From Thioalkalivibrio sp. ALJ3 (lineage in GTDB: Bacteria; Pseudomonadota; Gammaproteobacteria; Ectothiorhodospirales; Ectothiorhodospiraceae): a DNA stretch of 64,000 bases. The stretch's first letter is position 1. Each line of letters starts with the position of its first letter. The notes under the pieces were generated by a model. It was given only the letters and a program-made list of their open reading frames with translations, ran no database searches and was not told the DNA's origin. Shown here in pieces: positions 1-61,139 of the stretch. Both the position numbers and the translations under genes were made by a program. The stretch spans positions 62,001 through 126,000 of the forward strand of contig NZ_KB897908.1 in assembly GCF_000377205.1 (NCBI RefSeq), in the 5' to 3' direction.

Positions 1-1016
1 CCGCACTGGGGCAGATCGAACGCCAATTCGGCAAGGGCGCGGTGATGCGCATGGGCGATCAGCAGGCGGTGGACGTGCCGGCCATCTCCACGGGTTCCCT
101 AGCGCTGGATATCGCGCTGGGCATCGGTGGCGTGCCACGCGGGCGCGTGGTCGAGATCTACGGGCCGGAGTCCTCGGGCAAGACGACCCTGACCCTGCAG
201 GTGGTGGCCGAGGCACAGAAGGTGGGCGGCACCGCCGCGTTCGTGGATGCCGAGCACGCCCTGGACCCGACCTACGCCGAGAAGCTGGGCGTAAACGTCG
301 ACGATCTGCTGGTCTCGCAGCCGGATACCGGCGAGCAGGCGCTGGAGATCGCCGACATGCTGGTTCGCTCCGGTGCGGTGGACGTGGTGATCGTCGACTC
401 CGTGGCCGCGCTGACGCCCAAGGCGGAGATCGAGGGCGAGATGGGTGACTCCCACGTTGGCCTGCAGGCGCGGTTGATGTCGCAGGCCCTGCGCAAGCTG
501 ACCGCCAACATCAAGCGTTCGAACACGCTGGTCATCTTCATCAACCAGATCCGCATGAAGATCGGCGTGATGTTTGGCAGTCCCGAAACCACTACCGGCG
601 GCAACGCGCTCAAGTTCTACTCCTCCGTGCGCATGGATATCCGCCGCATCGGCGCGATCAAGAAGGGCGACGAGGTGATCGGCAACGAGACCCGCGTGAA
701 GGTCGTCAAGAACAAGATGGCGCCCCCGTTCAAGGAGGCGTACTTCGAGATCCTCTATGGCGAGGGTATCTCGCGCGTGGGCGAGATCATCGAGATGGGC
801 GTGAAGGAAGGCCTGATCGACAAGGCCGGCGCCTGGTACAGCTACAACGGCGAGCGTATCGGCCAGGGCAAGGAGAACGCCCGCCAGTACCTGAAGGACA
901 ACCCGCAGATCGCCGAGGAAGTCGAGAAGACCCTGCGCGAACGCCTGCTGCCGAAGCGCAACAAGGCCCCGGTAGAGGACGTGCCGGCCGATGCCTCGGT
1001 CGAGGAGCAAGGCTGA
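1..1016 (+). CDS. recA: RecA recombinase (5' end outside window)
   Basis: RecA coats single-stranded DNA, drives homologous strand exchange and triggers LexA cleavage in the SOS response. The reading frame is open from base 3, so the N-terminus lies before the window. The Walker A motif GPESSGKTT and the family stretches around [23 protein letters not shown] and INQIRMKIG are all present in order. The C-terminus ends in the usual acidic tail ([13 protein letters not shown]). Its last bases overlap the start of recX, a common arrangement in which the RecA inhibitor is translated together with RecA. The identity is very secure; only the missing start is uncertain. Confidence 0.98.
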
Positions 1017-1473
1017 TCCGGCCGACCCGGACGCCGCACTGGAGGCTGGGCTTCGGCTTCTGGTGCGGCGCGAGCATTCCGCGCTGGAGCTCGCGCGCAA
1101 GCTCGCCGAACGCGGTTTCGAGCGCGACGCAGTGGATGCCGCGCTCGAGCGTGCGCGCGAACTCGACTACCTGAGCGACACCCGTTACGCCGACTTCATC
1201 GCCCGCCACCGCACCGATCAGGGCTACGGCGAACAGCGCATCCGCGCCGAGCTCGCCCACAACGGCATCGGCAGCGATACCGTTAATGCCGCCATTGAAT
1301 CCCTGGAGGTCGACTGGACCGAGCAGGCCCGTGGCCAGCTCGAACGCCACTTCCGTCATCCCCCCGAGACCCGCGAGGACGAGGCCCGCATGCTCCGCCA
1401 CCTGGCCGGCCGCGGCTTCCCCGGTGGCGTCGCCCACCAGGCCCTCGCCGCCTGGAAAGACGGGACCCGGTAG
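991..1473 (+). CDS. recX: RecX regulatory protein
   Basis: RecX binds RecA filaments and limits their growth. The 160-residue product is mostly helical with the repeated three-helix pattern of the family: paired segments such as [20 protein letters not shown] and [17 protein letters not shown]. The ATG chosen overlaps the recA 3' end by 26 bases, which fits translational coupling. The stop codon lies in a GTAGGAC repeat that forms the edge of the downstream REP element, so the original C-terminus may have been altered by a few residues. Confidence 0.93.
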
Positions 1474-1483
1474 GACGTAGGAC

Positions 1484-1642
1484 GTAGGAGGCCAGCCCCC
1501 TGGCCGATGCGACGTTGATAATGCCCCATCGGCCAGAGGGCTGGCCTCCTACAGGGGTGGTGGCTTTGTCGTTGTAGGAGCGCAGCCCCTTGCGCGATGG
1601 GGCGTTGGCGGTGCCCCATCGGCCAGGGGGCTGGCCTCCTAC
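1484..1642. repeat. Two REP pairs (BIME) between recX and alaS
   Basis: Two inverted pairs at 1484-1552 and 1574-1642. Each outer edge reads GTAGGAG inward and CTCCTAC outward. Inner arms are either GGCCAG/CTGGCC or GCGCAG/CTGCGC hairpins. The left edge is preceded by two extra GTAGGAC copies from about 1470. The remaining bases to alaS (1643-1732) show no gene. Confidence 0.9.
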
Positions 1643-1732
1643 ATCATGGCCCGAAGGCGGGGGCGGCAATACGCGGGTTGGGGGCTTGCGTGATAGGATT
1701 CCGGTTTTGACCCCATATTCAATCGGAACCGC

Positions 1733-4342: not shown

Positions 4343-4497
4343 CGACGCCTCGTCATCGCGGGGCGCGCACCGCGGTGGCGACCCGTGTCCGGAACAGCCC
4401 TCGGCGCGTCTCGTGAAGGCCCGGGGGTTCTCGCAATAACGACCTGAATGATGTTTAATGCGCCGCCTTTCCGGGTGGCGGTGAATGGAATCGTGCA

Positions 4498-5742
4498 ATG
4501 GCGTTGCTGGTACTGAAATTCGGGGGCACCTCGGTGGGCACCACCGAGCGCATCCAGGCGGTCGCGGAGCGGGCTTTGAAGCTGCGCGAGGAGGGTCATC
4601 AAGTGGTGATCGTTGTCTCTGCGATGAGCGGCGAGACGGATCGCCTTCTGGGTCTCGCCCATGCGCTGAATCCACGAGCCGATGGCCGCGAGCTGGACGT
4701 GCTGTTGTCCACCGGCGAGCAGGTGACGATTGCCCTGCTGGCGATGTCGCTGGAGGCGCATGGTTGTCCCGCACGCTCCTATACCGGCGCCCAGGTCACG
4801 ATTCGCACCGACAGTGCGCACAACAAGGCGCGCATCCGCAGTATCGACGATGCCCGCGTGCGGGCGGATCTGCAGGCCGGCCGAGTCGTCGTTGTGGCCG
4901 GATTCCAGGGGGTGGACGAGCACGGCGCGATCACCACGCTGGGCCGCGGCGGGTCGGATACGACGGCCGTCGCGCTGGCCGCGGCACTCAAGGCCGATGA
5001 ATGCCGGATTTACACCGACGTCGATGGTGTGTACACCACGGATCCCCGCCTGGTGCCCCAGGCACGGCGGCTGCATAGCATTACCTTCGAGGAGATGCTG
5101 GAGATGGCGAGCCTCGGCTCGAAGGTGCTGCAGATCCGCGCGGTGGAATTTGCGGGCAAGTACAACGTCCCTCTTAGAGTGCTGTCCTCGTTCGAGGAAG
5201 GACCGGGGACCCTGATTACCACGGAGGAGGATGCGCAGGTGGAACAGGCGCTGGTTGCGGGTATCGCGTTCAATCAGAACGAGGCCCAGCTAACGGTTCA
5301 GGGCGTCCCCGATCAGCCGGGGGTCGCGCATCGTATCCTCGGGCCGATCGCGGACGCCAACATCGAAGTGGACATGATCGTGCAGAACGTGGGCGCGGAT
5401 CAGACCACCGACTTCACCTTCACGGTGCATCGCAACGACTACGACAAGGCGTTGGCGATTCTGCAGGATGCCTGCAGGGCACTGAATGCGCGCGAGGTTT
5501 CCGGAGATACGCACATTGTGAAGATCTCCGTGGTTGGTGTCGGCATGCGCTCGCATGCCGGGATCGCCAGCCAGATGTTCGAGGCACTCTCGCGCGAGAC
5601 GATCAACATCCGAATGATCTCCACTTCCGAGATCAAGATCTCGGTGGTTGTGGATGAGAAGTACCTCGAACTTGCTGTACGCGCCCTGCATGATGCCTTT
5701 GAACTTGAGCAGGAACCTGTCGGTCAACAGGAGGACGGTTAA
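4498..5742 (+). CDS. lysC: Aspartate kinase
   Basis: Phosphorylates aspartate, the first step toward lysine, threonine and methionine. The protein begins [14 protein letters not shown], the nucleotide-binding KFGGTS motif at residues 7-12, and continues with [12 protein letters not shown] and the substrate-loop region [13 protein letters not shown]. Two ACT domains fill the C-terminal part from about residue 265, so feedback inhibition by an end-product amino acid is expected. It is the single-domain type, not fused to homoserine dehydrogenase. The 155-base gap to alaS shows no gene. csrA follows 68 bases downstream. Confidence 0.97.
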
Positions 5743-5810
5743 GGATGACAAACCGTAAAACGGTTACCGGACGACCGACTGCGTCCGACACAGGCACTGC
5801 GGAGAAGAGC

Positions 5811-6059
5811 ATGCTCATTTTGACTCGACGTGTGGGCGAGACCCTCATGATCGGCGAGGACGTTTCCGTCACCGTCCTGGGGGTCAAGGGCAATCAGGTT
5901 CGTATCGGGATCAATGCGCCTCAGGACGTGGCGGTCCACCGCGAGGAGATCTTCCAGCGTATTCAGCGCGAATCCAGCGCGACCGGCGATGATCAGGGCT
6001 CGTCCGGCGGTGGGTCCGCCCCGGGAGGGAGTGTGGCGGCTTCCTCGCGCGACGACTGA
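5811..6059 (+). CDS. csrA: Carbon storage regulator CsrA
   Basis: RNA-binding dimer that represses or activates translation by binding GGA motifs in leaders. The canonical start [18 protein letters not shown] lies at 5811, behind the Shine-Dalgarno GGAGAAG; an upstream in-frame ATG at 5745 would add an unconserved 22-residue extension and is not preferred. The 82-residue product has the normal core of about 60 residues followed by a Gly/Ser-rich acidic tail of about 20. Position between lysC/alaS and tRNA-Ser matches the widespread gammaproteobacterial order. A strong terminator follows. Confidence 0.97.
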
Positions 6060-6071
6060 CCAAGCCTGTCA

Positions 6072-6108
6072 GGCCCGGCGGTTGCGGCAACCGCCGGGCC
6101 TTTTCTTT
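6072..6108 (+). terminator. Rho-independent terminator after csrA
   Basis: A GC-rich perfect stem (GGCCCGGCGGTT paired with AACCGCCGGGCC) with a short loop is followed by TTTTCTTT. It ends the lysC-csrA unit just before tRNA-Ser. Confidence 0.92.
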
Positions 6109-6143
6109 ATGGGCACAAGTCCGTATCCTGTGCCGCGCATTCC

Positions 6144-6234
6144 GGAGAGTTGGCCGAGTGGTCGAAGGCGCTCCCCTGCTAAGGGAGTATGGGTCAAAAG
6201 CCCATCGAGGGTTCGAATCCCTCACTCTCCGCCA
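6144..6234 (+). tRNA. tRNA-Ser (anticodon GCT)
   Basis: A 91-base class II tRNA with a long variable arm. The acceptor strands GGAGAGT and ACTCTCC pair, the anticodon loop holds GCT (reading AGC/AGU), and the T arm has GGTTCGAATCC. CCA is encoded. The last 19 bases are repeated twice downstream at 183-bp intervals. Confidence 0.97.
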
Positions 6235-6640
6235 GACCCAGCAAAGGGGCCCGAGAGGCCCCTTTCGCACGTATGGCCCCCGAGGTATCGAGATTCGAAC
6301 CCGAGACATAGAGAATGATGGTTCGACGGGTGACGCGCAGCGGCACCCGAACGTCGCCGCAGGCGACGGCCCGAAGGGCGAAGCGCAAAGCGCCGAGTAA
6401 TCCCTCACTCTCCGCCAGACCCAGCAAAGGGGCCCGAGAGGCCCCTTTCGCACGTATGGCCCCCGAGGTATCGGGATTCGAACCCGAGATATAGAAAATG
6501 GTGGTTCGACGGGTGACGCGTAGCGGCGCCCGAACGTCGCCGCAGGCGACGGCCCGAAGGGCGAGGCGCTAAGCGCCGAGTAATCCCTCACTCTCCGCCA
6601 GACCCAGCAAAGGGGCCCGAGAGGACCCTTTGGCGCATGG
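6216..6640. repeat. 183-bp tandem repeat seeded on the tRNA-Ser 3' end
   Basis: The sequence beginning at 6216 inside the tRNA T arm recurs at 6399 and 6582, so the period is 183 bp, with two complete copies and a partial third. Each copy carries the tRNA 3' end (AATCCCTCACTCTCCGCCA) and a hairpin terminator (AAAGGGGCC/GGCCCCTTT at 6243-6265 and 6426-6448; damaged in copy 3). The two full units also hold a T-arm-like block in reverse orientation (ATTCGAACCCGAGA) and a GTCGCCGCAGGCGAC palindrome. The copies differ at several bases, so duplication is not very recent. Confidence 0.93.
6243..6265 (+). terminator. Hairpin terminator after tRNA-Ser
   Basis: AAAGGGGCC and GGCCCCTTT form a nine-pair stem that starts eight bases after the tRNA CCA. 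It is repeated at 6426-6448 and, with a disrupting base, at 6609-6631. Confidence 0.8.
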
Positions 6641-6710
6641 CGCGCCTCCCTGGCAGTCTTTCGTGCGCAAGGCTTTCGGTGCGACTTTGTGACGTCGGTC
6701 TCCCGAATGA

Positions 6711-6739
6711 TTGGTAATTCTCCCATTTTCGTCTATGTT
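6711..6739 (+). promoter_or_regulatory. Sigma-70-like promoter for the Tat-peptide leader
   Basis: TTGGTA at 6711-6716 and TATGTT at 6734-6739 are separated by exactly 17 bases. Nothing else nearby has both boxes. Transcription from here would give a leader of about 250 bases before the Tat peptide gene. Confidence 0.6.
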
Positions 6740-6744
6740 ATGGG

Positions 6745-6991
6745 CCGGTCGGCCCCCATCCAGCCGTTTGGGTGGTGGCCTACTTGTGAGCGGGTACAGG
6801 GAAGCTCGGGCCTGGCAAGGGTCCGCGGTACCCCGGGAGGATGCGTTACGCCGCGATACTGGGGGCGGGCGACGGTTCTCCCGCGATCGTCATGGAGCCA
6901 TCGCCCTGGCATGGTTCCGGATTACAAGAACAACAAGGCGGTTGTCAGCCCCGCGTTTTCGCTTCCCCCGAAGGAACGGAGGACGACGCGT
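6745..6991 (+). ncRNA. Structured leader, possible cis-regulatory RNA
   Basis: About 245 bases without a convincing gene but with strong local pairing. GGCCCCCATCC (6751-6761) pairs with GGGTGGTGGCC (6770-6780) with one mismatch. GGAGCCAT (6894-6901) pairs with ATGGTTCC (6911-6918). GCGG/CCGC pairing spans the middle. The segment around TACAGGGAAGC and GATACTG has short resemblances to cobalamin riboswitch cores, but I see no B12-box, so no class is assigned. It may be a riboswitch, an attenuator or a separate small RNA. Confidence 0.35.
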
Positions 6992-7162
6992 ATGCATCGC
7001 AGGAATTTTCTCAAGGCCGGCATGGCCCTGTCGGCCGGATTGGTGGTGCCCGGAGCGGCGTCAGCGGTTACGCTCGGCGCAGAATTGCTCCAAAGCCTTC
7101 ACCAGCATGAGCCTGAAACGACCCGGTTTGGCGTGTTCCTGCGTCACGATCATCACCACTAG
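6992..7162 (+). CDS. 56-residue Tat-signal small protein
   Basis: Function unknown. The start ATG follows a strong Shine-Dalgarno (AAGGAACGGAGGA). The N-terminus MHRRNFLKAG is a textbook twin-arginine signal, followed by a hydrophobic stretch (MALSAGLVVPGAASA) with an AxA-type cleavage site. Only about 30 residues would remain after cleavage, ending in the histidine cluster RHDHHH, which could bind a metal. It may be a genuine small exported protein or the stub of a longer Tat substrate; no downstream frame continues it. The histidine-rich end and the downstream CxC-type ArsR regulator hint at metals, but this link is only an inference. Confidence 0.7.
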   Translation: MHRRNFLKAGMALSAGLVVPGAASAVTLGAELLQSLHQHEPETTRFGVFLRHDHHH

Positions 7163-7181
7163 ATGGTTTTGCTGAATACCC

Positions 7182-7215
7182 GCACGCACTGGGGCTCTTG
7201 GGTTCCCGTGCGTGC
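7182..7215 (+). terminator. Hairpin between the Tat peptide and arsR
   Basis: GCACGCAC pairs with GTGCGTGC across an 18-base loop, about 20 bases after the stop codon. The downstream stretch is only weakly T-rich, so it may be a weak terminator or a regulator site. Confidence 0.4.
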
Positions 7216-7272
7216 TAATCTTGCCTTTAATGGCCGACTTATGGTGGCCGGATCGGCCGAAGTGGATTTCCT

Positions 7273-7647
7273 ATGTCCCTGACCCCTACCGTGTTGTTCA
7301 GCCTACTGGCGGACGATACCCGACTGCGTTCACTGCTCCTGATTCACATCGAGCGCGAACTCTGCGTGTGCGAGCTGATGAGCGCACTGGAGGCCTCGCA
7401 ACCGAAAGTCTCGCGCCATCTGGCCGCATTGCGTCAACAGGGCGTGGTGACGACGCGGCGCGAAGGCAACTGGATCTACTATCGGTTGCACCCGAAGCTG
7501 CCGGACTGGGCCCGTGAGGTCCTGGCGTCGACGGCCGAGGCTTCGCGCATCGATGGCACACTCCGCGAGGATCATGCGCGCCTGCAGGCGATGTGGCGTG
7601 ATGCCGATCTGGGGCTGCCGGACTCTCGGCGCTCGTCGGAAACCTGA
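7273..7647 (+). CDS. ArsR-family metalloregulator
   Basis: A 124-residue winged-helix repressor. The helix-turn-helix is visible in LEASQPKVSRHLAALRQQGV, followed by the wing RREGNWIYYRLHP. The ELCVCEL motif near residues 34-40 is the cysteine pair that binds arsenite or antimonite in classical ArsR proteins. No arsenate reductase or efflux pump is adjacent, so the targets lie elsewhere or it regulates its neighbour. Its TGA stop directly abuts the stop of the converging maf gene, the two forming a TGATCA palindrome. Confidence 0.9.
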   Translation: MSLTPTVLFSLLADDTRLRSLLLIHIERELCVCELMSALEASQPKVSRHLAALRQQGVVTTRREGNWIYYRLHPKLPDWAREVLASTAEASRIDGTLREDHARLQAMWRDADLGLPDSRRSSET

Positions 7648-8253
7648 TCAGTGTTCCTCGGCGGGAGGCATGGCAATGCCTGCTTCCCGCAGCCACTGAC
7701 ACAGGCGGATCAGCGGCAGACCCACCAGGGCGGTGGGGTCCGCGCCCTCCATGCGCTCGAACAGGCTGACACCCAGCCCTTCCGACTTGAAACTGCCGGC
7801 ACAGTCCACGGGATTGTCCAGCGCCACATAGGCGCGAATCTCGGCATCTGACAGCGGGCGGAAGCTGACGATGTATTCAACGTCCGCCACCCGTGTCTTC
7901 CCGCTGGGGGCATCCAGCAGGCACAGCCCGGTGTGAAAGGTGACCGTGCCGCCGGACAGCGAGGCAAGCTGTTCGCGGGCGCGCTCGGCATTGCCCGGCT
8001 TGCCCAGGATGCGGCCCTGATGGCTGGCGCTTTGGTCGGATCCAATGATCAATGCGTCCGGGTGGATATCGGCAACTGCACGGGCCTTGGCCTCTGCGAG
8101 GCGCTGTACGAGGGCCGCCGCTTCTTCGTCCGGGAGTCGAGCCTCGTCAACCTGCGGGGCAGCGGTCGTGAACGGCAGATGCAGCCGCTGCAACAGCTGC
8201 GCGCGATAGGGCGAGGTGGAGGCGAGGACGATCTCGTGCATGGGGTTACCCAT
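7648..8253 (-). CDS. yceF: Maf/YceF nucleotide pyrophosphatase
   Basis: Maf-family hydrolases remove pyrophosphate from non-canonical nucleotides; the YceF branch prefers 7-methyl-GTP. The protein opens with IVLASTSPYRAQLL, the family's SxSPxR signature, and has GSDQSA in place of the ADT of the dTTPase branch, which favours the YceF subfamily. The ATG at 8253 overlaps the carboxyltransferase stop by eight bases; a second ATG at 8241 is equally close to family N-termini. It lies in the general neighbourhood of yceD-rpmF-plsX, as in many relatives, but is separated from yceD by the two carboxylase genes. Confidence 0.93.
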   Translation of the reverse strand: MGNPMHEIVLASTSPYRAQLLQRLHLPFTTAAPQVDEARLPDEEAAALVQRLAEAKARAVADIHPDALIIGSDQSASHQGRILGKPGNAERAREQLASLSGGTVTFHTGLCLLDAPSGKTRVADVEYIVSFRPLSDAEIRAYVALDNPVDCAGSFKSEGLGVSLFERMEGADPTALVGLPLIRLCQWLREAGIAMPPAEEH

Positions 8254-10072
8254 CGAGGGCGTCGATCTCGATCAGGGCATCGTCCGGGTTGGCGGCCGCA
8301 CCCTTGGCCACGTTTACTGCGCGCACTGTGCCGGCAATAGGCGCGGCGATTTCCGATTCCATCTTCATCGCCTCGATTACGAGTACGGGCTGTCCGGCCT
8401 CCACAACGTCACCCTCGGCCACCAGTACGTCGATGATGGTGCCGGGCATGGAGGTGGTGACATCGCCCGGGCGGGTGGCGCGCCGGGATCTTGTGCCTGC
8501 GCGCGGCGATTCGGCGCCACCGCCGCCGGCCGTGTCGATGGTATCGAGCGTCTCGATCAGAACCTCTTCCGGCATGCCGTCGACTGTGATGTACATCGGG
8601 CGCGTGTCCTCGCGATGGTGTCCACTGCCATTGACCCGGATGTGGTACGACTCCCCATGGAAGCTGACGTTGAATTCCACCGGTGCCGGGCAGCCGGCCT
8701 GGGTGCTGTCTGGTGGGTTCAACGGTTCCGGTTCAAGCGTGTCGTCGCGGCGTTGTTCGAGGAACGTCCGGCCTACCTCGGGAAACAGCGCGAAGGTCAG
8801 CACGTCCTCGGGCCCTTGGGCCAGGTCGCCGATCTCCCGGGTCAGATGGTCCATCTCCGGCTTCAACAGGTCCGCCGGGCGCACGTCAATGACCTCGGCG
8901 TTGCCGATTGCCTTGCGCTGGATCACGCGATTGATGGATCCCGGCGCGCGGCCGTAGTGTCCGGTCAGGTACTGCTTCACCTCGTTGGTGATGGTTTTGT
9001 AGCGCTCCCCGGCGAGGACGTTCATCACCGCCTGGGTGCCAACAATCTGCGAGGTCGGCGTGACCAGGGGCGGATAGCCGAGATCCTCGCGCACGCGCGG
9101 GATCTCCTCCAGCACGGCATCAAAGCGATCCAGCGCGTTCTGGTCGCGCAGCTGGTTGGCGAGGTTGGAGATCATGCCACCCGGTACCTGGTTCACCTGT
9201 ACTCGGGTATCGACGCCGGTGTACTCGCTCTCGAAGCGCCGGTACTTCTTGCGCACCTCGTGGAAATACAGCCCGATCTTCTGCAGGGCCACGAGATCCA
9301 GGCCCGTGTCGTGCTCGGTGCCGGACAACGCTGCGACCAGGCTCTCCGTGGGGGGGTGGCTGGTGCCCCCGGCGAAGGCGGAGATCGCCGTCTCGATGTG
9401 GCGGCAGCCGGCCTCGATCGCCTGCCAGTGACACAGCTCGGACAGACCCGAGGTGGCATGCGCATGCAGGTGGATGGGTACATCCAGCGCATCCACCAGC
9501 TCGGTAACCAGCTCACGGGTGGCCGCTGGAGTCAGCAGCCCGGCCATGTCCTTGATTGCGATGCTCTGTGCCCCCATGTCCACCAGCTCGCGGGCGAGGA
9601 CGACGAATTGCGCGGCGGAGTGTACCGGCCCGGTGGTGTAGCAGAGCGTGCCCTGGGCATGGCCACCGGCCTTGCGAGTGGCCTCGATCGCGGTGCGCAG
9701 GTTCCGTGCATCGTTCATCGCGTCGAAGATGCGGATGATGTCGATGCCGCCGGCCACGGACCGCTCGACGAAGGCGCGCACGACGTCATCCGCATAGTGG
9801 CGGTAGCCGAGCAGGTTCTGCCCACGCAGCAGCATTTGCAGCGGCGTGTTGGGCAGTGCGGCCTTGAGCTGGTGCAGGCGTTCCCATGGGTCTTCCTTGA
9901 GAAAACGCACGCAGGCGTCGAACGTGGCTCCACCCCAGGCCTCGAGGGAGTGAAAGCCGATCGCGTCCATCTGCTCGCAGATCGGCAGCATGTCCTCGGT
10001 GCGCATGCGCGTGGCGATCAGGCTCTGGTGGCCGTCGCGCAGAGTGACATCCGTTATGTGAACTCGGTCCAT
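8246..10072 (-). CDS. Carboxyltransferase-biotin carrier subunit (PycB/OadA type)
   Basis: Transfers the carboxyl group between carboxybiotin and a 2-oxo acid. The N-terminal HMGL-like domain starts VHITDVTLRDGHQSLIATRM, followed by the conserved carboxylase domain. The C-terminal biotinyl domain carries VIEAMKMESEI, where the lysine is biotinylated. The linker near residues 535-550 is Gly/Ala/Arg-rich. The next gene upstream on the same strand is a separate biotin carboxylase, so the pair most likely makes a two-subunit pyruvate carboxylase. An oxaloacetate decarboxylase is less likely because no membrane beta or gamma subunit is present. Confidence 0.92.
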   Translation of the reverse strand: MDRVHITDVTLRDGHQSLIATRMRTEDMLPICEQMDAIGFHSLEAWGGATFDACVRFLKEDPWERLHQLKAALPNTPLQMLLRGQNLLGYRHYADDVVRAFVERSVAGGIDIIRIFDAMNDARNLRTAIEATRKAGGHAQGTLCYTTGPVHSAAQFVVLARELVDMGAQSIAIKDMAGLLTPAATRELVTELVDALDVPIHLHAHATSGLSELCHWQAIEAGCRHIETAISAFAGGTSHPPTESLVAALSGTEHDTGLDLVALQKIGLYFHEVRKKYRRFESEYTGVDTRVQVNQVPGGMISNLANQLRDQNALDRFDAVLEEIPRVREDLGYPPLVTPTSQIVGTQAVMNVLAGERYKTITNEVKQYLTGHYGRAPGSINRVIQRKAIGNAEVIDVRPADLLKPEMDHLTREIGDLAQGPEDVLTFALFPEVGRTFLEQRRDDTLEPEPLNPPDSTQAGCPAPVEFNVSFHGESYHIRVNGSGHHREDTRPMYITVDGMPEEVLIETLDTIDTAGGGGAESPRAGTRSRRATRPGDVTTSMPGTIIDVLVAEGDVVEAGQPVLVIEAMKMESEIAAPIAGTVRAVNVAKGAAANPDDALIEIDALDG

Positions 10073-10105
10073 GGCTAGTCCGGTGGTCCGGGGGGCAATG
10101 TCTTG

Positions 10106-11524
10106 CTAAAGCCCGTGGTGGGCGGCGATTGCGGCCGCGATTGCGACGGCCATCTGGCGCTCGGAGCGCTTGGCCGGCAGATTGGTCAGTTCAGGGTGAT
10201 CTGCGATGAAGCCGGTATTGAAATCCGCGCGCCGAAAATCCGGGTGGTTCACGATTGCAAGATGGTAGGGGATGGTGGTCTTCACCCCGAACACGCCCAT
10301 GTCCCGCAGGGCACGATTGCTGCGTGCCAGCAGGTCGTCCCACTCCAGCGCCCAGCAGATCAGCTTGGCGCACATCGAGTCGTAGTGCGGCGGGATCTCG
10401 TAGCCGGTGTAGATCGCGCCGTCCGTGCGAACACCCGGGCCGCCGGGGGCAAAGTAGCGCGTAATGCGACCAAAGCTCGGCAGGAAGTCGTTGGTCGGAT
10501 CTTCCGCGTTGATGCGAAACTCCATGGCGAAGCCGCGTCGGGTGATCTGTGATTGCTCATAGCGCAGCGGTTCGCCACTGGCAATGCGCAACTGCTCCTG
10601 CACGATGTCCACGCCCGTGATCATCTCAGTAGCTGGATGTTCGACTTGAAGACGTGTGTTCATCTCCATGAAATAAAAAGTGTCATCGCCGTCCATCAGG
10701 AACTCGACGGTCCCGGCGTTCTGGTACCCGACCGTCTGCGCGGCCGTGACGGCCAGCGAGCCCAGGCGTTCGCGCTGGGCCTCGCACAATTGCGGCGAAG
10801 GGGCGATCTCGATCAGTTTCTGATGGCGCCGCTGCACGGAGCAGTCACGCTCGTACAGGTGAACGGCATTGCCATGCATATCCGCGAGGATCTGTACCTC
10901 GATGTGACGCGGGTTGACCACGGCTTTTTCCAGGAAGATCTCGGTGCTGCCGAACGCGCGTGTGGCCTCCGAGCGTACGCGGTCGAAGTTGTGCCTCAGG
11001 GCGTCCGGATCTTCGCACAGGCGGATGCCGCGCCCGCCGCCGCCACTGGTCGCCTTGAGCATCACGGGGTAGCCGATTGCCTCGGCGGCCTCCAGAGCGG
11101 CCTCCAGCGTCTCCAGGTTGCCCTCTGACCCTGGTGTGATCGGCACCCCGGCCTCGATCATGGCCTGCCGCGCGGCCACCTTGTCGCCCATGCGGCGAAT
11201 GACGCTGGCGTCCGGGCCGACCCAGATGAGCCCGCGCGCGGCGCAGGCGGCCGCGAAATCCGCATTCTCGGAGAGAAAACCGTATCCCGGGTGCACAGCG
11301 TCGCATCCGGCGGCCCGGGCGACGCTGAGCAGCCGGTGGATGCTCAGGTAGCCACCCATGCTGTCAGGACCGATGGCGTAGGCCTCGTCCGCTTTTTTTA
11401 CGTGCAGGGCGTGGCGGTCGGCGTCGGTATGCACCGCGACCGAGGTAATCCCCATCTCCGCGCAGGCCCGGGTCAGGCGCACGGCGATCTCGCCCCGGTT
11501 GGCTATGAGCAGCTTGCGGATCAA
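10106..11524 (-). CDS. Biotin carboxylase subunit (PycA/AccC-like)
   Basis: ATP-dependent carboxylation of biotin. The homologous part begins IRKLLIANRGEIAVRLTRAC, so a TTG at 11524 is taken as the start, giving 472 residues. The frame stays open upstream to 11644, but that extension would run into the yceD promoter. The ATP-grasp signature (KATSGGGGRGIR), HIEVQILAD and FMEMNTRLQVEHPATE are all visible. It lies 33 bases before its carboxyltransferase partner and is transcribed with it. A second, fatty-acid-specific AccC probably exists elsewhere. Confidence 0.92.
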   Translation of the reverse strand: MIRKLLIANRGEIAVRLTRACAEMGITSVAVHTDADRHALHVKKADEAYAIGPDSMGGYLSIHRLLSVARAAGCDAVHPGYGFLSENADFAAACAARGLIWVGPDASVIRRMGDKVAARQAMIEAGVPITPGSEGNLETLEAALEAAEAIGYPVMLKATSGGGGRGIRLCEDPDALRHNFDRVRSEATRAFGSTEIFLEKAVVNPRHIEVQILADMHGNAVHLYERDCSVQRRHQKLIEIAPSPQLCEAQRERLGSLAVTAAQTVGYQNAGTVEFLMDGDDTFYFMEMNTRLQVEHPATEMITGVDIVQEQLRIASGEPLRYEQSQITRRGFAMEFRINAEDPTNDFLPSFGRITRYFAPGGPGVRTDGAIYTGYEIPPHYDSMCAKLICWALEWDDLLARSNRALRDMGVFGVKTTIPYHLAIVNHPDFRRADFNTGFIADHPELTNLPAKRSERQMAVAIAAAIAAHHGL

Positions 11525-11600
11525 ACGGAAGGTCCCGGGAAGGTCAGTGACAGCCCGAGTATCGACATGCAGTCGAAGGGCTGCAAGTTTCTGTTTCGCT

Positions 11601-11630
11601 TTGACAGAATAGGTCTCGCACGCGTATATT
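11601..11630 (+). promoter_or_regulatory. Sigma-70 promoter for yceD-rpmF-plsX-fabH
   Basis: A perfect TTGACA at 11601-11606 and TATATT at 11625-11630, 18 bases apart, 26 bases before the yceD ATG. It lies within the in-frame extension of the divergent biotin carboxylase gene, which supports the shorter start of that gene. Confidence 0.85.
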
Positions 11631-11655
11631 CCGCGCCCTTGCACGAGAGTGTTCT

Positions 11656-12177
11656 ATGAGTCGTATTCCCGTATCTCTCGACCCGTGGCAGCCACGGGCC
11701 CGGCACCAGGAATTCGAAGGCGATTTGTCTGCGGAGGATCTGCCGCGCCTGCGGGACGAGGCGCTGGCCGAGCACACGCTATGGATTCATGTCCGTTTCG
11801 GGTTGGAGCGCGGCGCGCTGGACGAGATGCGGCTGACCGGAGTGATCACCGGCGAGCTGTGGCAGACCTGCCAGCGTTGTCTGCAACCGTTGGCCTGGGA
11901 ATTCCGGCTCGAGACCGATGCAGTGATCCTGCCGGCGGGCGGTTCCGTGGAAGGCCTGGGCGCGGACGAGGATATCCTCGAACTGGAGGACGATGGGCGG
12001 CTGCACCCGGCGGTCTGGGCCGAGGACGAGGTGCTGCTGGCCAGGCCGCTGGTGCCGCGCCACGCGGACTGCGAGCCTGCCGTGGAACCCGAATTTGTTC
12101 CCGGACAGCGCGAGGACAATCCGTTTGCGGTGCTCGAACAGCTAAAGGGCAGTTCGCGCAACGGCGACGACCGATAG
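11656..12177 (+). CDS. yceD: YceD, 23S rRNA accumulation protein (DUF177)
   Basis: A 173-residue acidic protein of the DUF177 family, which in E. coli is needed for normal 23S rRNA accumulation and is encoded next to rpmF. The conserved TCQRCLQPLAWEF cysteine motif near residues 74-86 and the C-terminal EDNPFAVLEQLK segment are present. It is the first gene after a strong promoter and is followed by rpmF. Confidence 0.92.
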   Translation: MSRIPVSLDPWQPRARHQEFEGDLSAEDLPRLRDEALAEHTLWIHVRFGLERGALDEMRLTGVITGELWQTCQRCLQPLAWEFRLETDAVILPAGGSVEGLGADEDILELEDDGRLHPAVWAEDEVLLARPLVPRHADCEPAVEPEFVPGQREDNPFAVLEQLKGSSRNGDDR

Positions 12178-21648: not shown

Positions 21649-24234
21649 TTGATTTTCTTCAACGACATCAGCAGCTGTGTGTGGAGACCATGGCGAGCGT
21701 CGGCCATGGGCCTTCTGCTCGCCGCCACAATGTGCCTGTCGGTTGGGGTCAGCGCGGACGAGAACGTGCGCGTCGGGCTTTACGAGAATGTGCCCAAGGT
21801 CGGCACCGGCGACGACGGGGCGGCCGGTGGCGTGTTCGTGGAGCTTCTGGAGGCCATTGCCCGCCGCGAGCACTGGCAGGTGGAGTACGTCTCGTGCGAG
21901 TGGTCGGCCTGTCTGGATGCACTGGAAGCGGGCGAGATCGACCTGATGCCGGATGTCGCCCTGACTCCGGAACGTCGTGAAAGCCTTGCGTTCCATTCGA
22001 TTCCGGTGGTTCAGGCGTGGAGTCAGGTGCTGGCTCCCGTCAACTCGGGCCTGGACCGCATGGAGTCACTGGAAGGCCTCCGGCTGGCGGTGCTCGATGG
22101 TTCGGTTCAAAGCGATTATCTGCGCGAGTATGCGCGGAGCGAGGGTCTGGACTGGACACTCGTACTTCGTCCCGACATGCAATCCGTGCTGGGTGCAGTC
22201 ACCGCGGGCGAGGCCGACGTTGCGATCAGCAACAACTTTTATGGACGCCGTCACGCTCGTCAGCACATGCTGGTGGAAACGCCCATCACCTTTGACCAGG
22301 TCGGTCTCTATTTTGCGGCCGCGCCCGGGAGGCAGGCTGAGCGACTGGACGTCCTTGACGCCTATCTGCAGCGTTGGAAGGGTGAGGCCGGTTCGCCCTA
22401 TCACCAGGCGATGGAGCAGGCTCTGGAGCCGACGACCCTCGGGAGCGAGATTCCGGCGTGGGCGTGGCCGGCCCTGGCCGCCGCTGGGGGGAGCGCGCTT
22501 GTTCTGGCGCTGATGGCGCTTTGGCTGAGGCGCACGGTGCGCGCAAGGACGCATGATTTGCGCGAAGCCAACCAGCGGCTCGAGCATCTGCTGGAGAGTG
22601 GGCCCGTGGTGCTCTATCAACTCAATGCGCAGGATTTCAAACTCCTTTGGGTAAGTGGCAATTTCCAGCGCCTGTTCGGGTTCGATCCCGAGACCGCCCT
22701 GCAACCGGGCTGGTGGGAACAACAAGTGCACCCGGAGGACCGGCCGACCGCCCTGCGCGAGAATCGGCGTCTGCTCCAGGAACGTCATATGGTCCGTGAG
22801 CTACGGCTGTTCGATGGCTGGGGCAAGCTGCGCCATATCCGCGACGAGCTGCGGATCGTGCCTGGCAGAATCCAGGGGCAGGGCGGAGCCGAGGTGGTTG
22901 GCAGCTGGACGGACCTGACCGCCAGCATGGAACAAAAGGAAGCGTTGCGGCAGATGGCGCACTATGACTCGTGCACGGGGCTGCCCAATCGCGTATTGCT
23001 GCATGATCGTCTGGGACACACGCTGGAGCGGGCGCTGGCCGATGGCCAGGTTCGCTGGGTCGTGCTGATTGACCTTGACCGCTTTCGGAATGTCAACGAA
23101 ACCCTTGGAACATCCGCGGGAGACCGGGTGCTGGAGGCCATGGGCGAGCGGCTCGGGCGCCTGCTGGGGCCGCAGGATACCATTTCGCGTGTGGGTGCCG
23201 ACGAGTTCTGCCTGATCGTCGAGTCGCCACCGCTGGACACGGGTGCTGTCCCCTTCCTCGAGCGCTTGCTGGAGGTTCTGCGCGAGCCCAGTGCCGTTGG
23301 CGGACGCTCGCTGGTGACCACCGCGAGTGTGGGGATGGCGACGTTCCCCGAACATGGCACTACGCGCGACGAACTGCTGACAGCGGCGGAGATTGCGATG
23401 GCCGTGTCACGCAGCGTTGGTGGCGATACGTGGCATGTCTACGAACCGGGAATGGGAGCTCAGACCGAACATCGCCTGTTCCTGGAAAACGATTTGCGTA
23501 GCGCGGTCGCCAACAATGAATTGCTGCTCTACTTCCAGCCGCAGCGGGACATGCGGACGGGCCGACTGGTGGGTATGGAGGCGCTGGTGCGCTGGCGCCA
23601 CCCGCAAAGGGGAATGGTTTCGCCGGCGGAATTCATACCACTGGCGGAGGAGACCGGGATGATTCAGGCCATCGACCGTTGGGTGCTGAACGCGGCCTGT
23701 GCCCAACTGGCGCACTGGGACCAGGAAGGCCGCAAGATACCGACGGTGGCGGTGAATCTCTCGGCCCGGGAACTGCATGACGAGACTCTGGTGGCGGCGA
23801 TTCAGGAGATCCTGGCGCGTCATGCTCTGGAGCCCGGCCGGCTCGAGCTGGAATTGACCGAGACCATGATGATGGAGCAGCCGGAGCGGGCCCTGGCCGT
23901 TCTGCACCGCCTGGAGACCCTGGGTGTGACACTGGCCATGGATGACTTCGGTTCGGGCTACTCCAACCTGGCGCATCTGCGCCGGCTGCCGCTGCGGCGG
24001 TTGAAGATCGACCAGTCACTGGTCCGCGATATCGGCTACTCCCGCAATAACGAATCGATCATATGCGCGATCATTGCCCTGGCCGAGGCGCTGGGGCTGG
24101 ATCTGATCGCCGAGGGTGTGGAAGAGGCCGGACAGCAGGCCTTCCTGCTGGGCGAGGGCTGTCGTTTCGGGCAGGGTTATCTGCTGGGTCGTCCGGCACC
24201 GGCCGACAAGGCTCTGCAAGGTATTGACGCATAG
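21649..24234 (+). CDS. Periplasmic-sensor PAS-GGDEF-EAL protein
   Basis: A c-di-GMP enzyme anchored in the inner membrane. The start is TTG at 21649 with an AGGGG ribosome site; a GTG at 21679 is possible. Domains in order: signal/anchor to about residue 38; SBP_bac_3-type binding domain, about 40-265; membrane helix near 266-292; PAS about 305-425; GGDEF about 440-600 with the signature changed to GADEF (residues 516-520); EAL about 620-855 with intact EALVRW (E644), DDFGSGYSNL and AEGVEE. Phosphodiesterase activity looks likely, and the cyclase site may be weakened. A small solute in the periplasm is the probable signal. Confidence 0.9.
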   Translation: MIFFNDISSCVWRPWRASAMGLLLAATMCLSVGVSADENVRVGLYENVPKVGTGDDGAAGGVFVELLEAIARREHWQVEYVSCEWSACLDALEAGEIDLMPDVALTPERRESLAFHSIPVVQAWSQVLAPVNSGLDRMESLEGLRLAVLDGSVQSDYLREYARSEGLDWTLVLRPDMQSVLGAVTAGEADVAISNNFYGRRHARQHMLVETPITFDQVGLYFAAAPGRQAERLDVLDAYLQRWKGEAGSPYHQAMEQALEPTTLGSEIPAWAWPALAAAGGSALVLALMALWLRRTVRARTHDLREANQRLEHLLESGPVVLYQLNAQDFKLLWVSGNFQRLFGFDPETALQPGWWEQQVHPEDRPTALRENRRLLQERHMVRELRLFDGWGKLRHIRDELRIVPGRIQGQGGAEVVGSWTDLTASMEQKEALRQMAHYDSCTGLPNRVLLHDRLGHTLERALADGQVRWVVLIDLDRFRNVNETLGTSAGDRVLEAMGERLGRLLGPQDTISRVGADEFCLIVESPPLDTGAVPFLERLLEVLREPSAVGGRSLVTTASVGMATFPEHGTTRDELLTAAEIAMAVSRSVGGDTWHVYEPGMGAQTEHRLFLENDLRSAVANNELLLYFQPQRDMRTGRLVGMEALVRWRHPQRGMVSPAEFIPLAEETGMIQAIDRWVLNAACAQLAHWDQEGRKIPTVAVNLSARELHDETLVAAIQEILARHALEPGRLELELTETMMMEQPERALAVLHRLETLGVTLAMDDFGSGYSNLAHLRRLPLRRLKIDQSLVRDIGYSRNNESIICAIIALAEALGLDLIAEGVEEAGQQAFLLGEGCRFGQGYLLGRPAPADKALQGIDA

Positions 24235-38072: not shown

Positions 38073-40349
38073 ATGCTGGGAGAGTGGCGTTCGCGTGTCG
38101 CGTGTGGGTTAGGGGTTATGTGGATGGCCTTGGCACTGGCAGTCCTCGCGCCGTTAACCGCCGTTGCATCCTCGTCCCCGTCCGCAGCCGATATCGGTAC
38201 CCCGATCCCGATCACGCAACAATCGGCACCGGACGTGCTGCGCTCTGGCTGGTTCGAGCGTCCCCCGTATCAGGCCGATTCCGACAGCGCGTCCCGGGGA
38301 TCCCCGACCGGGCTCGACGTGCTGGTCGCGCAGGAGGCGCTGGCCGGTGTCGGGCATGGCGCCGAGTTCGTACCGCTTGCCTGGAGCGAGCAGCTCACCG
38401 CATTGCGCCACGGTGCGATCGACTTTGTCGTCGGTACCTATCTCGAGCCCGGGCGCCTCGACTATGCGCATTATTCGCGGCCTTACCGCCAGGAACGGAA
38501 CGCCCTCTATGTGCGCGCCGGCGAGCGCGGTGATTACGTGTTCGAGGACCGCACGGCCCTGGTCCGTGCGGTACGGGACGGAGACTTCCGGCTGGGTGTG
38601 ACCACGGGCTATGCCTACGCCTCCAGCGAGCTGGCCGATCTGGTCGCGGATCCGGGGGAGGACGCGCGCCTGTACCCCGCCGCCGGTGACGAGGCCCACA
38701 TCCAGGCGCTGGTTGAGGGCCGGATTGATGGCTTTGTCGCGGATCCCGTGATTGTGGATCTGCTGCTGGCACGAACGGATCGCGCCCGTCTGATTCAGGT
38801 GCATCCCCTGGACCTGGGCGCCGTTGGCGTGCGCGTGATGTTCTCCCGCGCCACGGTCCCCGAGTCCTTCGTCGAGCAGTTCAACTCGCAGTTGCAGGCA
38901 CTGGAGGACAGCCGCCGGATTGTCGCGCTGGAAGTCGAGCATGTGCTGCCCGCGTTTCTCTCAATGGCCACCAGCGAGACCTGGTTCAATACGCTCACCC
39001 TGCTGGGGATCCTCGCGTTTTCCGCCTCCGGGCTGATCCTCGCCCGGCGCGAACGCTACAACCTGTTCGGTGCCCTGGTCCTGGCCTCGCTGCCGGCCAT
39101 CGGTGGCGGCGTGCTGCGCGATCTGCTGCTGGGCCGCGACCCGATCTTCATCTTCGAGACGCCGGAGTTCCTGCTGGTCCCGATTGTTGTCGTGGGAGTC
39201 GGCTTCGTGTTGTACAAGCTGCATGACCATGTGCTGGTGCGCTGGCATGTCGTCCAGGAACTTCTGGCGCGGCAGCGGAAGGGATTGGGCGGGCGCGTCG
39301 TGGGGAATCTGCAGCGTGGACTGGATGCCTGGGCAGTGGCCTCGTTCACCGTGATCGGGGTCGGGGTGGCGGTCGAGTCGCAGGCCAGCCCGTTGTGGCT
39401 CTGGGGCCCGGTAATGGCCGTGGTGACCGCCTCGTTCGGCGTGATCATGCGCGATGTGGTGCGCTCGGACTTCAATATCGACATGCTCAAGCGCGACTCC
39501 TTCGCCGAGATCTCGGTCCTGGGCGGCATTCTCTATTCGCTGATCCTGCTCTGGCCCCCGGTGGAGCTGAGCCTCGGGTTTATCCTGATCGCGACGCATG
39601 CGGTGATCGTGCTGCTGTTCCTGGCGCGTCTTGGAGTTCTCTACTGGGGTCGTCCCAACCCGTTGCAGATGGGTGACCCGCATACCCTGCCCGAACGGCG
39701 TCTGGATGCACTGGTACGCCGCGAAACCGAGGCCTGGTCGAGCCTGACTTCCTACCTCACCGAGGATGCCGAGGGGCGAGCTCGCCCGGCCGAGCCCGGG
39801 GAGCTGGAACGCCTGCACAAGGATTTCGAATACCTGCTGCAGCCGGTGTTGGCCGAGTTGGACCGGCTGGCGGGCGAGCCCCTGCTGGAGGCCGCCGCGC
39901 GCCGGCACGAGGCCCTGCGTGACCGCTTTCGGCTGGTCGCGCGTCTGGAGCAGCAGATGTATGACCACCTGCGTGAGACCGCGACCGACGCCGAAACCGC
40001 GGCCGACGAGATGGCGCGGGCCCTGGAAGGGCGCGTTCTCGAGGCCCTGCGCGGTCTGCTGGATACCGCGACCATGGCCGTGAGTTCCACGGACCACGAC
40101 GACCTGGCATGGCTGCGCGACATGACGGCCAATCAGCGCAGCCGCTTCGATGCCCTGCGTGCCCGCTACCTCGACCCCGATCATTTCCAGCCCGGGAGTG
40201 CACTGGATCGCGTGCTGCAGCGAACGCACCGCGTCGAACGCATGCTCTGGATGCTGGCGGAGTACGCGGAGCGAAGGCTCGAACCGACGCCGAGCCCGGT
40301 ACAGCGTGATCGGCGCGCACTCCAGAAACGCTTTTTGCGCGCCGACTGA
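38073..40349 (+). CDS. Binding-domain/TRIC-channel fusion protein
   Basis: A 758-residue protein of unusual architecture. Residues 1-33 are a signal peptide. About 50-290 form an SBP_bac_3 amino-acid-binding-type domain (GWFERPPYQ, LDVLVAQEAL, LRHGAIDFVVGTYLEPGRLDYAHYS). About 303-522 contain membrane helices in two repeats matching the TRIC/UPF0126 (YadS) fold, with the first-repeat motif IGGGVLRDLLLG and the second-repeat counterpart ASFGVIMRDVVR. About 530-758 are cytoplasmic, highly charged and helical, with a PhoU-like look. This suggests a ligand-gated cation or small-molecule channel. It is divergent from the NMT1-type binding protein/phosphatase pair. ATG 38073 is chosen because it gives a clean signal peptide. 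Confidence 0.85.
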   Translation: MLGEWRSRVACGLGVMWMALALAVLAPLTAVASSSPSAADIGTPIPITQQSAPDVLRSGWFERPPYQADSDSASRGSPTGLDVLVAQEALAGVGHGAEFVPLAWSEQLTALRHGAIDFVVGTYLEPGRLDYAHYSRPYRQERNALYVRAGERGDYVFEDRTALVRAVRDGDFRLGVTTGYAYASSELADLVADPGEDARLYPAAGDEAHIQALVEGRIDGFVADPVIVDLLLARTDRARLIQVHPLDLGAVGVRVMFSRATVPESFVEQFNSQLQALEDSRRIVALEVEHVLPAFLSMATSETWFNTLTLLGILAFSASGLILARRERYNLFGALVLASLPAIGGGVLRDLLLGRDPIFIFETPEFLLVPIVVVGVGFVLYKLHDHVLVRWHVVQELLARQRKGLGGRVVGNLQRGLDAWAVASFTVIGVGVAVESQASPLWLWGPVMAVVTASFGVIMRDVVRSDFNIDMLKRDSFAEISVLGGILYSLILLWPPVELSLGFILIATHAVIVLLFLARLGVLYWGRPNPLQMGDPHTLPERRLDALVRRETEAWSSLTSYLTEDAEGRARPAEPGELERLHKDFEYLLQPVLAELDRLAGEPLLEAAARRHEALRDRFRLVARLEQQMYDHLRETATDAETAADEMARALEGRVLEALRGLLDTATMAVSSTDHDDLAWLRDMTANQRSRFDALRARYLDPDHFQPGSALDRVLQRTHRVERMLWMLAEYAERRLEPTPSPVQRDRRALQKRFLRAD

Positions 40350-60450: not shown

Positions 60451-60726
60451 ATGGAGAATGTGATTTCGGCGCAGGAGATCAAGCGGCGCGGCATTAGCGC
60501 GGTGGATCGGGCGCTGGAGAAGGGGCCGGTGCACGTGATCCAGCGCAATCGTCCGCGTTACGTGATCCTGAGCGAGGAGTCCTACCAGCGTTTGGCGGCG
60601 GGCGTAGAGGCCCGGGGGCACCTGTGGCACCGGTTGCTGGAAGACGATGCAACGCCGGCTGCACCCCGAAGCCGGGAGGATCTGGACCGTGAATTGCAAT
60701 CGGAGCGCGAAGGCTGGTCCGATTGA
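60451..60726 (+). CDS. Antitoxin, Phd/RelB-like
   Basis: A 91-residue protein with a Phd-like N-terminus (ISAQEIKRRGISAVDRALEKG, VHVIQRNRPRYVILSEESYQRL) and an acidic helical C-terminal part. TGATG overlap with the next gene indicates coupled translation with the PIN toxin. Confidence 0.88.
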   Translation: MENVISAQEIKRRGISAVDRALEKGPVHVIQRNRPRYVILSEESYQRLAAGVEARGHLWHRLLEDDATPAAPRSREDLDRELQSEREGWSD

Positions 60727-61139
60727 TGCTGGCATTCCTGGATGCCAGTGCCATCATCTATCTCCTGGAGGGCGATACTCGTACCCGAGAGGCGGTTCGC
60801 CAGGTGCTCAGAAATCTGGAGCAGAGCGACGGCCCTCCGGCGCTGGTGGTCTCCGCCTTGAGCCGCCTGGAATGCCGCGTGCGCCCGCTGCGCGAATCGA
60901 ACACCCCGGTTCTTGAACAACTGGATGCATTTTTCGACGACCCGGGGTTGTCGGTCGTTGCGCTGGATACGGCCATTCTGGACAAAGCGACGGAACTGCG
61001 TGCTCACCATGGACTGCGCACACCCGACGCCATTCAGGCAGCATCCCTGCTCGCAGTCGACCCGCAAGGCGCCTTCGTGACGGGCGATGGCGACTTTGAA
61101 AAGGTACCCGGCCTGCACGTCCACCGGATTCCCCGTTGA
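60726..61139 (+). CDS. vapC: PIN-domain toxin of the third pair
   Basis: A 137-residue PIN protein. Acidic residues lie in LAFLDASAIIYLLEGD, VSALSRLECRV, LRTPDAIQAASLL and VTGDGDFEKV. ATG 60726 overlaps the antitoxin TGA; a TTG one codon earlier is possible. Confidence 0.92.
   Translation: MLAFLDASAIIYLLEGDTRTREAVRQVLRNLEQSDGPPALVVSALSRLECRVRPLRESNTPVLEQLDAFFDDPGLSVVALDTAILDKATELRAHHGLRTPDAIQAASLLAVDPQGAFVTGDGDFEKVPGLHVHRIPR

Follow-up and report, generated by a model that had tools for sequence, protein, structure and literature searches.

Some soda-lake bacteria encode a real, conserved protein in which an amino-acid-binding-type domain, a TRIC-type membrane core and a PhoU-like tail are joined in one chain. 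Here we describe its gene from Thioalkalivibrio sp. ALJ3, in a window (the whole stretch of DNA that was analysed) of 64,000 nucleotides. The gene for this three-domain chain is inherited together with genes for a phosphatase, an NMT1-type binding protein and a STAS/HATPase_c_2 pair. Because it is inherited with this phosphatase-based signalling module, the product may well be under control at both membrane faces, as a possible transporter or channel. The reading that we prefer, tentatively and at somewhat less than an even chance, is a small-amino-acid permease or channel that its periplasmic domain loads or licenses and that the module sets from the inside. The fuller form of it, a TRIC permease or channel controlled at two faces, by an amino acid in the periplasmic clamshell and by a phosphatase-STAS-HATPase circuit acting on the PhoU-fold tail, should be regarded as unlikely.

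Table 1. Positions in the window of the fusion gene, its parts and the two genes that form a unit with it
Feature	Position	Strand	Remarks
SBP_bac_3 - TRIC/Gly_transporter - PhoU-like fusion gene	38073..40349	+	758 aa as read; start uncertain
Periplasmic family-3 binding domain	38223..38933	+	residues ~51-287
R128 of binding domain	38454-38456	+	aligns with AncQR Arg
D224 of binding domain	38742-38744	+	aligns with AncQR Asp
Linker, binding domain to TM1	38934..38981	+	residues ~288-303; length constant in five aligned copies
TRIC core	38970..39647	+	residues ~300-525; about 25 extra residues between repeats
V457, TM5 kink position in C-terminal repeat	39441-39443	+	Gly in stand-alone TRICs
F477, cytoplasmic-lock tyrosine position	39501-39503	+	Tyr in stand-alone TRICs
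Predicted PhoU-fold tail	39690..40292	+	residues ~540-740; homologous to Na/Pi-type transporter tails
NMT1/THI5-like periplasmic binding protein, 363 aa	36926..38017	-	divergent neighbour of fusion; part of unit
Cache-HAMP-SpoIIE (PP2C-type) phosphatase, 657 aa	34966..36939	-	14-base overlap with NMT1 gene; part of unit

Translation of the forward strand gave 758 stop-free codons across the whole of the fusion gene, in agreement with the single 758-residue protein of a preliminary description of this DNA. The start at 38073 is uncertain, because no ATG stands there in three relatives of about 90% identity, and starts at 38118 or 38124 are possible. Pfam searches of the protein returned Gly_transporter (PF03458) over two stretches, with E 3.1e-24 and 85.1 bits (cut-off 23.5), and SBP_bac_3 (PF00497) with E 2.6e-10 and 40.6 bits (cut-off 26.4); NCBIfam gave sub-threshold matches to the same kinds of domain and nothing above threshold. 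Both repeats exceed the curated cut-off, placing the protein in TRIC/UPF0126 at the domain level; it is a PF03458 member by domain, yet neither a canonical TRIC channel nor an ionotropic glutamate receptor. The full-length AlphaFold model, built from a five-row alignment, had a mean pLDDT of 58, with about 37 in the TRIC part. Solved TRICs have seven transmembrane helices and a cytoplasmic C-terminal end, according to the available part of PMC5477506. The topology of the fusion is consistent with theirs, which would place the binding domain in the periplasm and the PhoU-like tail in the cytoplasm; the protein is probably located in the inner membrane and, by the same analogy, trimeric.

The same order of domains occurs in 7 of 30 Thioalkalivibrio genomes, at 61-90% identity and under purifying selection, and the check for this order in other genomes that had been suggested with the preliminary description was thereby answered positively. 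The near relatives are Thioalkalivibrio ALJ21, ALJ7, AKL19 and a MAG. Identity to the window's protein is 90, 68, 62 and 61% in the five-copy alignment and about 90% in G392 and G393. In all four comparisons made by part, the TRIC core was the most conserved (81-98%, with 57-86% for the binding domain and 56-89% for the tail). Against the 90%-identical copy, dN/dS was 0.28 for the binding domain, 0.05 for the TRIC core and 0.15 for the tail; over four pairs the ranges were 0.17-0.46, 0.05-0.18 and 0.10-0.33, respectively, with dS near saturation in the most distant pair. A sequencing or assembly artefact joining two genes near 38960-38990, the refutation foreseen in the preliminary description, was ruled out, as seven genomes share the same fusion and the linker is gap-free in the five aligned copies.

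PF03458 was found in 11 of the 30 genus genomes: the seven with the fusion, two with a complete stand-alone gene (G015, G395), G005, where the gene is cut by a contig end, and G019, with a partial match in a 161-residue frame. None of the 30 holds both the fusion and a stand-alone gene. The family is present in 227 of 398 phylum genomes. Among 369 class genomes, tblastn (E up to 1e-6) recovered the full fusion from one, that of the window. A scan of contigs with two narrow peptide patterns gave four fusion loci, all of them in Thioalkalivibrio; within this partial coverage, no fusion was seen outside the genus. The fusion is rare in the samples searched, a statement that applies to those samples only. 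Frames of over 400 aa among the matches listed (G131, G603, G430) were judged by eye to be ordinary TRICs behind a shadow frame, and four long frames from the class tblastn (G108, G284, G211, G189) were likewise ordinary TRICs by eye.

Residues 59-227 of the fusion align with solved family-3 binding proteins (phmmer), and the structure predicted for residues 50-287 can be superposed on ligand cores of the arginine, glutamine and GluR0 types, with Z 12.2-14.6 among the best 50 matches. The domain matches 6ggp with Z 14.6 and rmsd 2.6 over 194 aligned residues, and the GluR0 ligand core 1ii5 with Z 13.2 and rmsd 4.6 over 202, which upholds the clamshell likeness to ionotropic glutamate receptors drawn in the preliminary description. 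The sensors BvgS and EvgS are also among its structural neighbours. In LAO, R77 and D161 are the pair that holds the amino-acid backbone; R128 and D224 of the fusion are invariant across the five aligned copies and match the ligand-holding Arg/Asp pair of the relatives. With a Pfam match, a family-3 fold and a predicted backbone-holding Arg and Asp, the segment appears to be a true SBP_bac_3 domain, as had been proposed. The short, conserved linker fits a mechanical coupling of this domain to TM1.

The two-repeat TRIC/UPF0126 core of the preliminary description was also recovered, and five solved TRIC sequences align with it, e.g. 5h36 (2.9e-14) and 5wuc (3.3e-12) by phmmer. Residues were counted in 37 stand-alone TRICs, mostly picked by similarity to the fusion, and seven fusions, after removal of eight duplicate or cut copies (the fusions L092, L110 and L097-L100, and the partial stand-alone L013 and L057). 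Positions were mapped to SaTRIC through F20, GGG48-50, D99, F106, R139, D140 and Y155, with the numbering given in the accessible part of PMC5477506. The TM2 glycines GGG344-346 and the pairs R349 D350 and R460 D461 are kept in all seven fusions, and the first repeat retains the TRIC motif, with N330 replacing an invariant Asp. In the C-terminal repeat, all seven fusions carry A421 and A449 for Gly, V422 for Leu, V457 for Gly (SaTRIC Gly136) and F477 for Tyr (SaTRIC Tyr155), at positions where 37 of 37 stand-alone TRICs are invariant. Five of the six substitutions at invariant positions fall in this repeat, and three of them replace glycine by a larger residue. The lock residues D418, R460 and D461 are retained. 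In SaTRIC, the cytoplasmic side is closed by a lock in the C-terminal repeat and TM5 is kinked at Gly136 (PMC5477506, in extract).

Judged by its residues, the core keeps two marks of a canonical conducting prokaryotic TRIC, the TM2 glycines and the R-D pairs, and lacks two others, the TM5 glycine and the lock tyrosine. Both repeats of the preliminary description are present, the second without its kink glycine. SaTRIC and CpTRIC (PF03458) share with the fusion the two Pfam repeats, TM2 GGG, R-D pairs in both repeats, the phenylalanines F316/F425 and the lock Asp D418 (fusion numbering); the fusion differs from them in its N-terminal binding domain, the ~25 inter-repeat residues, the PhoU-like tail and the replaced TM5 glycine and lock tyrosine. 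The changes in the C-terminal repeat would be compatible with altered gating or with loss of conduction.

These residues bear on the possibility of a ligand-gated cation channel, in which an amino acid closes the clamshell, TM1 is pulled and a K+-conducting TRIC pore opens, as in GluR0 with a pore of another family. The GluR0 core among the structural neighbours, the single-channel currents of a prokaryotic TRIC in KCl bilayers (PMC5477506, part of the text), the gap-free linker and the retained lock residues are all in keeping with such a channel. It is nevertheless quite unlikely, given V457 and F477 at positions invariant in the stand-alone proteins, the glycine-to-alanine changes at 421 and 449, the transporter and signalling contexts of the tail and of the neighbouring genes, and the genetic resemblance of UPF0126 relatives to glycine transporters (PMC12173739, in the portion available). 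Of the ligand-controlled permeation put forward in the preliminary description, the domain content, order and topology stand, and the replacement of the TM5 kink glycine and the lock tyrosine weakens the reading as a simple ligand-gated channel. GluR0 and other prokaryotic glutamate receptors resemble the fusion in carrying a periplasmic family-3-like ligand core and a membrane core on one chain. There, the ligand domain comes in two sections that lie on either side of two transmembrane helices (PMC2950845, in extract), whereas in the fusion the ligand domain is whole and N-terminal, not split around two helices, and the membrane core is a TRIC, not a K+-channel pore.

The same substitutions would also suit a transceptor or sensor, whose non-conducting TRIC core relays the signal of the binding domain to the tail, which in turn titrates STAS, HATPase or phosphatase. 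The signalling module is constantly linked to the fusion, and family-3 domains are found on sensors (the neighbours BvgS and EvgS; L019). We consider this reading rather improbable, since the TRIC core is the best conserved and most strongly constrained part of the chain, its TM2 glycines and both R-D pairs are intact, and every other protein found with the tail is a Na/Pi-type transporter.

Over residues 580-739, the fusion is similar to the C-terminal end of a Na_Pi_cotrans protein of 556 residues encoded elsewhere in the same genome (E about 1e-11). Because the binding domain filled the fold search of the whole model, the tail was modelled alone, which gave a pLDDT of 86 and six long helices with a short last one. 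VIA ranks 1-7 (Z 15.1-17.9, 183-200 residues aligned) comprised six PhoU or PhoU-like proteins and one titled hypothetical protein (1sum); the next matches, at Z 11.9-14.7, were plant ALMT channels, one C. difficile membrane protein and two PhoU-like proteins, and others reached 9.1 or less. Foldseek ranks 1-12 were titled PhoU or PhoU-like with weak E-values (best 0.024, none at 0.001), so that the assignment of the fold is based on the VIA Z-scores. The PhoU family PF01895 was absent among the Pfam families at E up to 1 for 14 tail members, which is why the tail is called only a PhoU-like fold; hmmsearch of the tail profile against the PDB gave weak matches only, and no PhoU. On the model, the tail has a predicted PhoU fold and is homologous to the tails of Na/Pi-type transporters (PF02690). 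The long charged cytoplasmic helical domain of the preliminary description is indeed helical and, by TRIC topology, would lie inside; its identity is corrected to a PhoU-fold tail (Z 15-18). Na/Pi-type transporters resemble the fusion in their homologous cytoplasmic tail and, in some other genera, in having phosphatase/NMT1 or STAS/HATPase neighbours, and the fusion departs from them in that a TRIC core replaces Na_Pi_cotrans and a binding domain is added.

The fusion gene is divergent from the NMT1-like gene, followed by the Cache-HAMP-SpoIIE phosphatase gene, in all seven fusion genomes. Of the 30 genus genomes, eight have the NMT1 gene and the same eight have the SpoIIE gene, namely these seven and G020, which has no fusion and where the NMT1 gene abuts CysZ. 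Since G020 has the module but no fusion, the module must also serve some other purpose. Eight genus genomes possess CysZ without the unit, and the site was read in five of them (G002, G004, G008, G021 and G022): DUF1631 and CysZ are adjacent there, at the place of the window's unit. This site is likewise empty in G024 and G010, whose unit is located at another place, with transposase-like genes in its vicinity; the three genes therefore stay together at two or more chromosomal places. Phosphatase/partner-switching context did not figure in the preliminary description.

In G024 and G010, STAS and HATPase_c_2 genes come after the phosphatase gene and adjoin it. Orthologues of the two are found in the same 7 of 30 genomes, which are the eight with the NMT1 and SpoIIE pair minus the 66%-complete G018, and they are present in 6 of the 7 fusion genomes; in the window's genome they lie on another contig. 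Fisher's test gave p 4e-6 each for STAS with the phosphatase and for the fusion with the NMT1 and SpoIIE pair, on counts that ignore shared ancestry. The parts of a partner-switching gene set (SpoIIE-type phosphatase, STAS and HATPase_c_2) occur together in the same genome. The co-inheritance of these three resembles RsbU/SpoIIE-RsbV-RsbW, the archetypes of which control sigma factors (PMC10120452, in the part available); the module differs in that its linked client appears to be a membrane protein.

Searched with a profile of fusion and Na/Pi tails, 369 class genomes gave the tail in five. Leaving the window's genome aside, the matches are five genes from four genomes; of these genes, L129, L130, L131 and L132 carry Pfam Na_Pi_cotrans and the fifth, L133 in G337, has a 30% match to the Na/Pi protein. 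Within the genus, a tail-type Na/Pi gene is present in 9 of 30 genomes, i.e. in all eight with the NMT1 and SpoIIE genes and in G006; the tail match itself was confirmed in seven of the nine, and G392 and G393 were counted by score and frame length. The tail-bearing Na/Pi gene of G130 has orthologues of NMT1 and SpoIIE (51 and 64%) next to it. In G103, a Cache-SpoIIE phosphatase with a different Cache domain, dCache_2, shares a run of genes with HATPase_c_2, STAS and the tail-bearing Na/Pi gene, with no NMT1 match near the latter. In G041, GPP34, STAS and HATPase_c_2 follow one of two tail-bearing Na/Pi copies. By eye, the stretches read around the second G041 copy and the G337 gene (L130 and L133, two of the five outside genes) showed no such neighbours. 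The element common to the window's gene and the Na/Pi loci outside the genus is the tail.

Such loci have to be weighed against the view that the neighbours are incidental and the fusion is a glycine permease assisted by its binding domain, with a PhoU-like tail of a generic kind, and is functionally unconnected to the phosphatase module. In the Thioalkalivibrio stretches read (L107, L108, L112, L113), no module adjoins the tail-bearing Na/Pi gene; L107, L108 and L113, together with L130 and L133, agree with that view, as does G020. We hold it to be very doubtful, because the linkage of the unit is preserved at two or more chromosomal sites and because three genomes from outside the genus have a phosphatase and/or STAS/HATPase next to a tail-bearing transporter.

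In the reading that we prefer, the periplasmic domain would capture an alpha-amino acid through R128 and D224, and closure of the clamshell would be relayed via the short linker to TM1, so that the TRIC core of the same chain is loaded or licensed. On the inside, the PhoU-like tail would hold the altered C-terminal repeat, which in SaTRIC forms the cytoplasmic gate, and serve as the docking point for the partner-switching module. The phosphatase, controlled through Cache and NMT1, would dephosphorylate STAS and so alter how much free HATPase or STAS the tail can meet, whereupon the permease would open or close; a module of this sort would also act on Na/Pi-type transporters with a related tail. 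We infer each of these steps (flux through the TRIC core, ligand capture, transfer or licensing via the linker, and control of the tail by the module). A binding domain feeding a non-ABC membrane core is an idea shared with TRAP transporters (PMC8276074, in extract); the binding domain of the fusion is, unlike theirs, covalently attached and of family 3, and no TRAP membrane or binding subunit family matched the fusion in Pfam at E up to 0.01, where only PF03458 and PF00497 appeared.

Three lines of evidence favour a regulated transporter or transceptor over a channel of the GluR0 kind: the C-terminal repeat is altered, the tail is otherwise found on Na/Pi transporters, and UPF0126 genes are important for glycine use. 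Glycine is our best guess as substrate, because UPF0126 genes matter for its use in 11 bacteria (PMC12173739, same portion) and because T. versutus (Thioalkalivibrio) makes the osmolyte glycine betaine by methylation of glycine (PMC9062515, in the part available). The glycine need is known for T. versutus, a different organism from the window's strain. R128 and D224, and the residues of the amino-acid motif that the Cache domain of the phosphatase keeps, also fit an amino acid as the ligand. Against the preferred reading, the replaced invariant residues of the C-terminal repeat could equally mean that nothing is transported; the separate contig of STAS/HATPase in the window's genome, the module without fusion in G020 and the tail-bearing Na/Pi genes without module in Thioalkalivibrio, L130 and L133 also speak against it, as do the dCache_2 phosphatase of G103 with no NMT1 match near it, the absence of a Pfam PhoU match for the tail and the Phe at the first Cache tyrosine of the window's phosphatase.

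If the fuller form, with control at two faces, holds true, the fusion would be a first ligand-controlled TRIC, as far as our searches show, and partner switching would here have a transporter, not a sigma factor, for its client, the same tail being present on Na/Pi-type transporters. Among the literature matches listed, which covered few subscription papers, none joined SBP_bac_3 with UPF0126 or dealt with a ligand-controlled TRIC, and none, judged by title and start of abstract, concerned partner switching of a PhoU-tailed transporter. TRIC/UPF0126 proteins are K+ channels according to structural work and glycine transporters according to genetics; the fusion makes this dispute directly testable, as a single protein allows ligand binding to be followed together with the fluxes of ions and amino acids. 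The recurring pairing of the PhoU-like tail with a phosphatase, STAS or HATPase suggests an unrecognised regulation of bacterial transporters, testable in at least two transporter families.

The Cache domain of the window's phosphatase keeps the R-x-W-Y spacing and, by reading of the alignment, the Asp of the amino-acid motif described in the accessible part of PMC10104139; the first Tyr of the motif is Phe.

In the Thioalkalivibrio genome G020, the fusion gene (SBP_bac_3, TRIC/Gly_transporter and PhoU-like tail) is absent, while its two companions in the unit, the NMT1-like binding protein and SpoIIE phosphatase genes, are present and CysZ immediately adjoins the former. This arrangement is either a natural deletion or the pre-insertion state. 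Around the unit in two further Thioalkalivibrio genomes, the transposase-like genes are of the IS200 type and of an HTH type with an IS481-like part.

In G001 and the window's genome, the gene for a Na/Pi-type transporter bearing a tail homologous to that of the fusion adjoins an SNF-family (sodium:neurotransmitter symporter) gene, identified with Pfam in the first and by visual inspection in the second. In G006 the flanks of the tail-bearing gene hold a large PAS-GAF-GGDEF-EAL-CZB sensor and a further binding protein of the NMT1-like kind; outside the genus, downstream of one such Na/Pi gene in G041 come GPP34, STAS, HATPase_c_2, ABC_sub_bind and another STAS.

A further large protein encoded in the window carries a family-3 binding domain and is probably a sensor; the window also has two small overlapping genes that by eye resemble an antitoxin and a PIN-domain toxin.

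Coordinates of the features described
Feature	Genome	Location
NMT1-like and SpoIIE genes, fusion absent	G020	L105 (C45) 7810-9660
Transposase-like genes in vicinity of unit	G024 and G010	L084 2209-2901; L114 1-557
SNF-family and tail-bearing Na/Pi-type genes	G001	L107 4441-7626
SNF-family and tail-bearing Na/Pi-type genes	Window's genome	L113 (C8) 87-3349
Tail-bearing Na/Pi gene and flanks	G006	L109 (C4) 3211-9487
Tail-bearing Na/Pi gene and following genes	G041	L131 (C33) 6403-11948
Large family-3 binding-domain protein	Window's genome	Window 21649-24234 (search match, contig C4 83769-84035)
Antitoxin-like and PIN-domain toxin-like genes	Window's genome	Window 60451-61139
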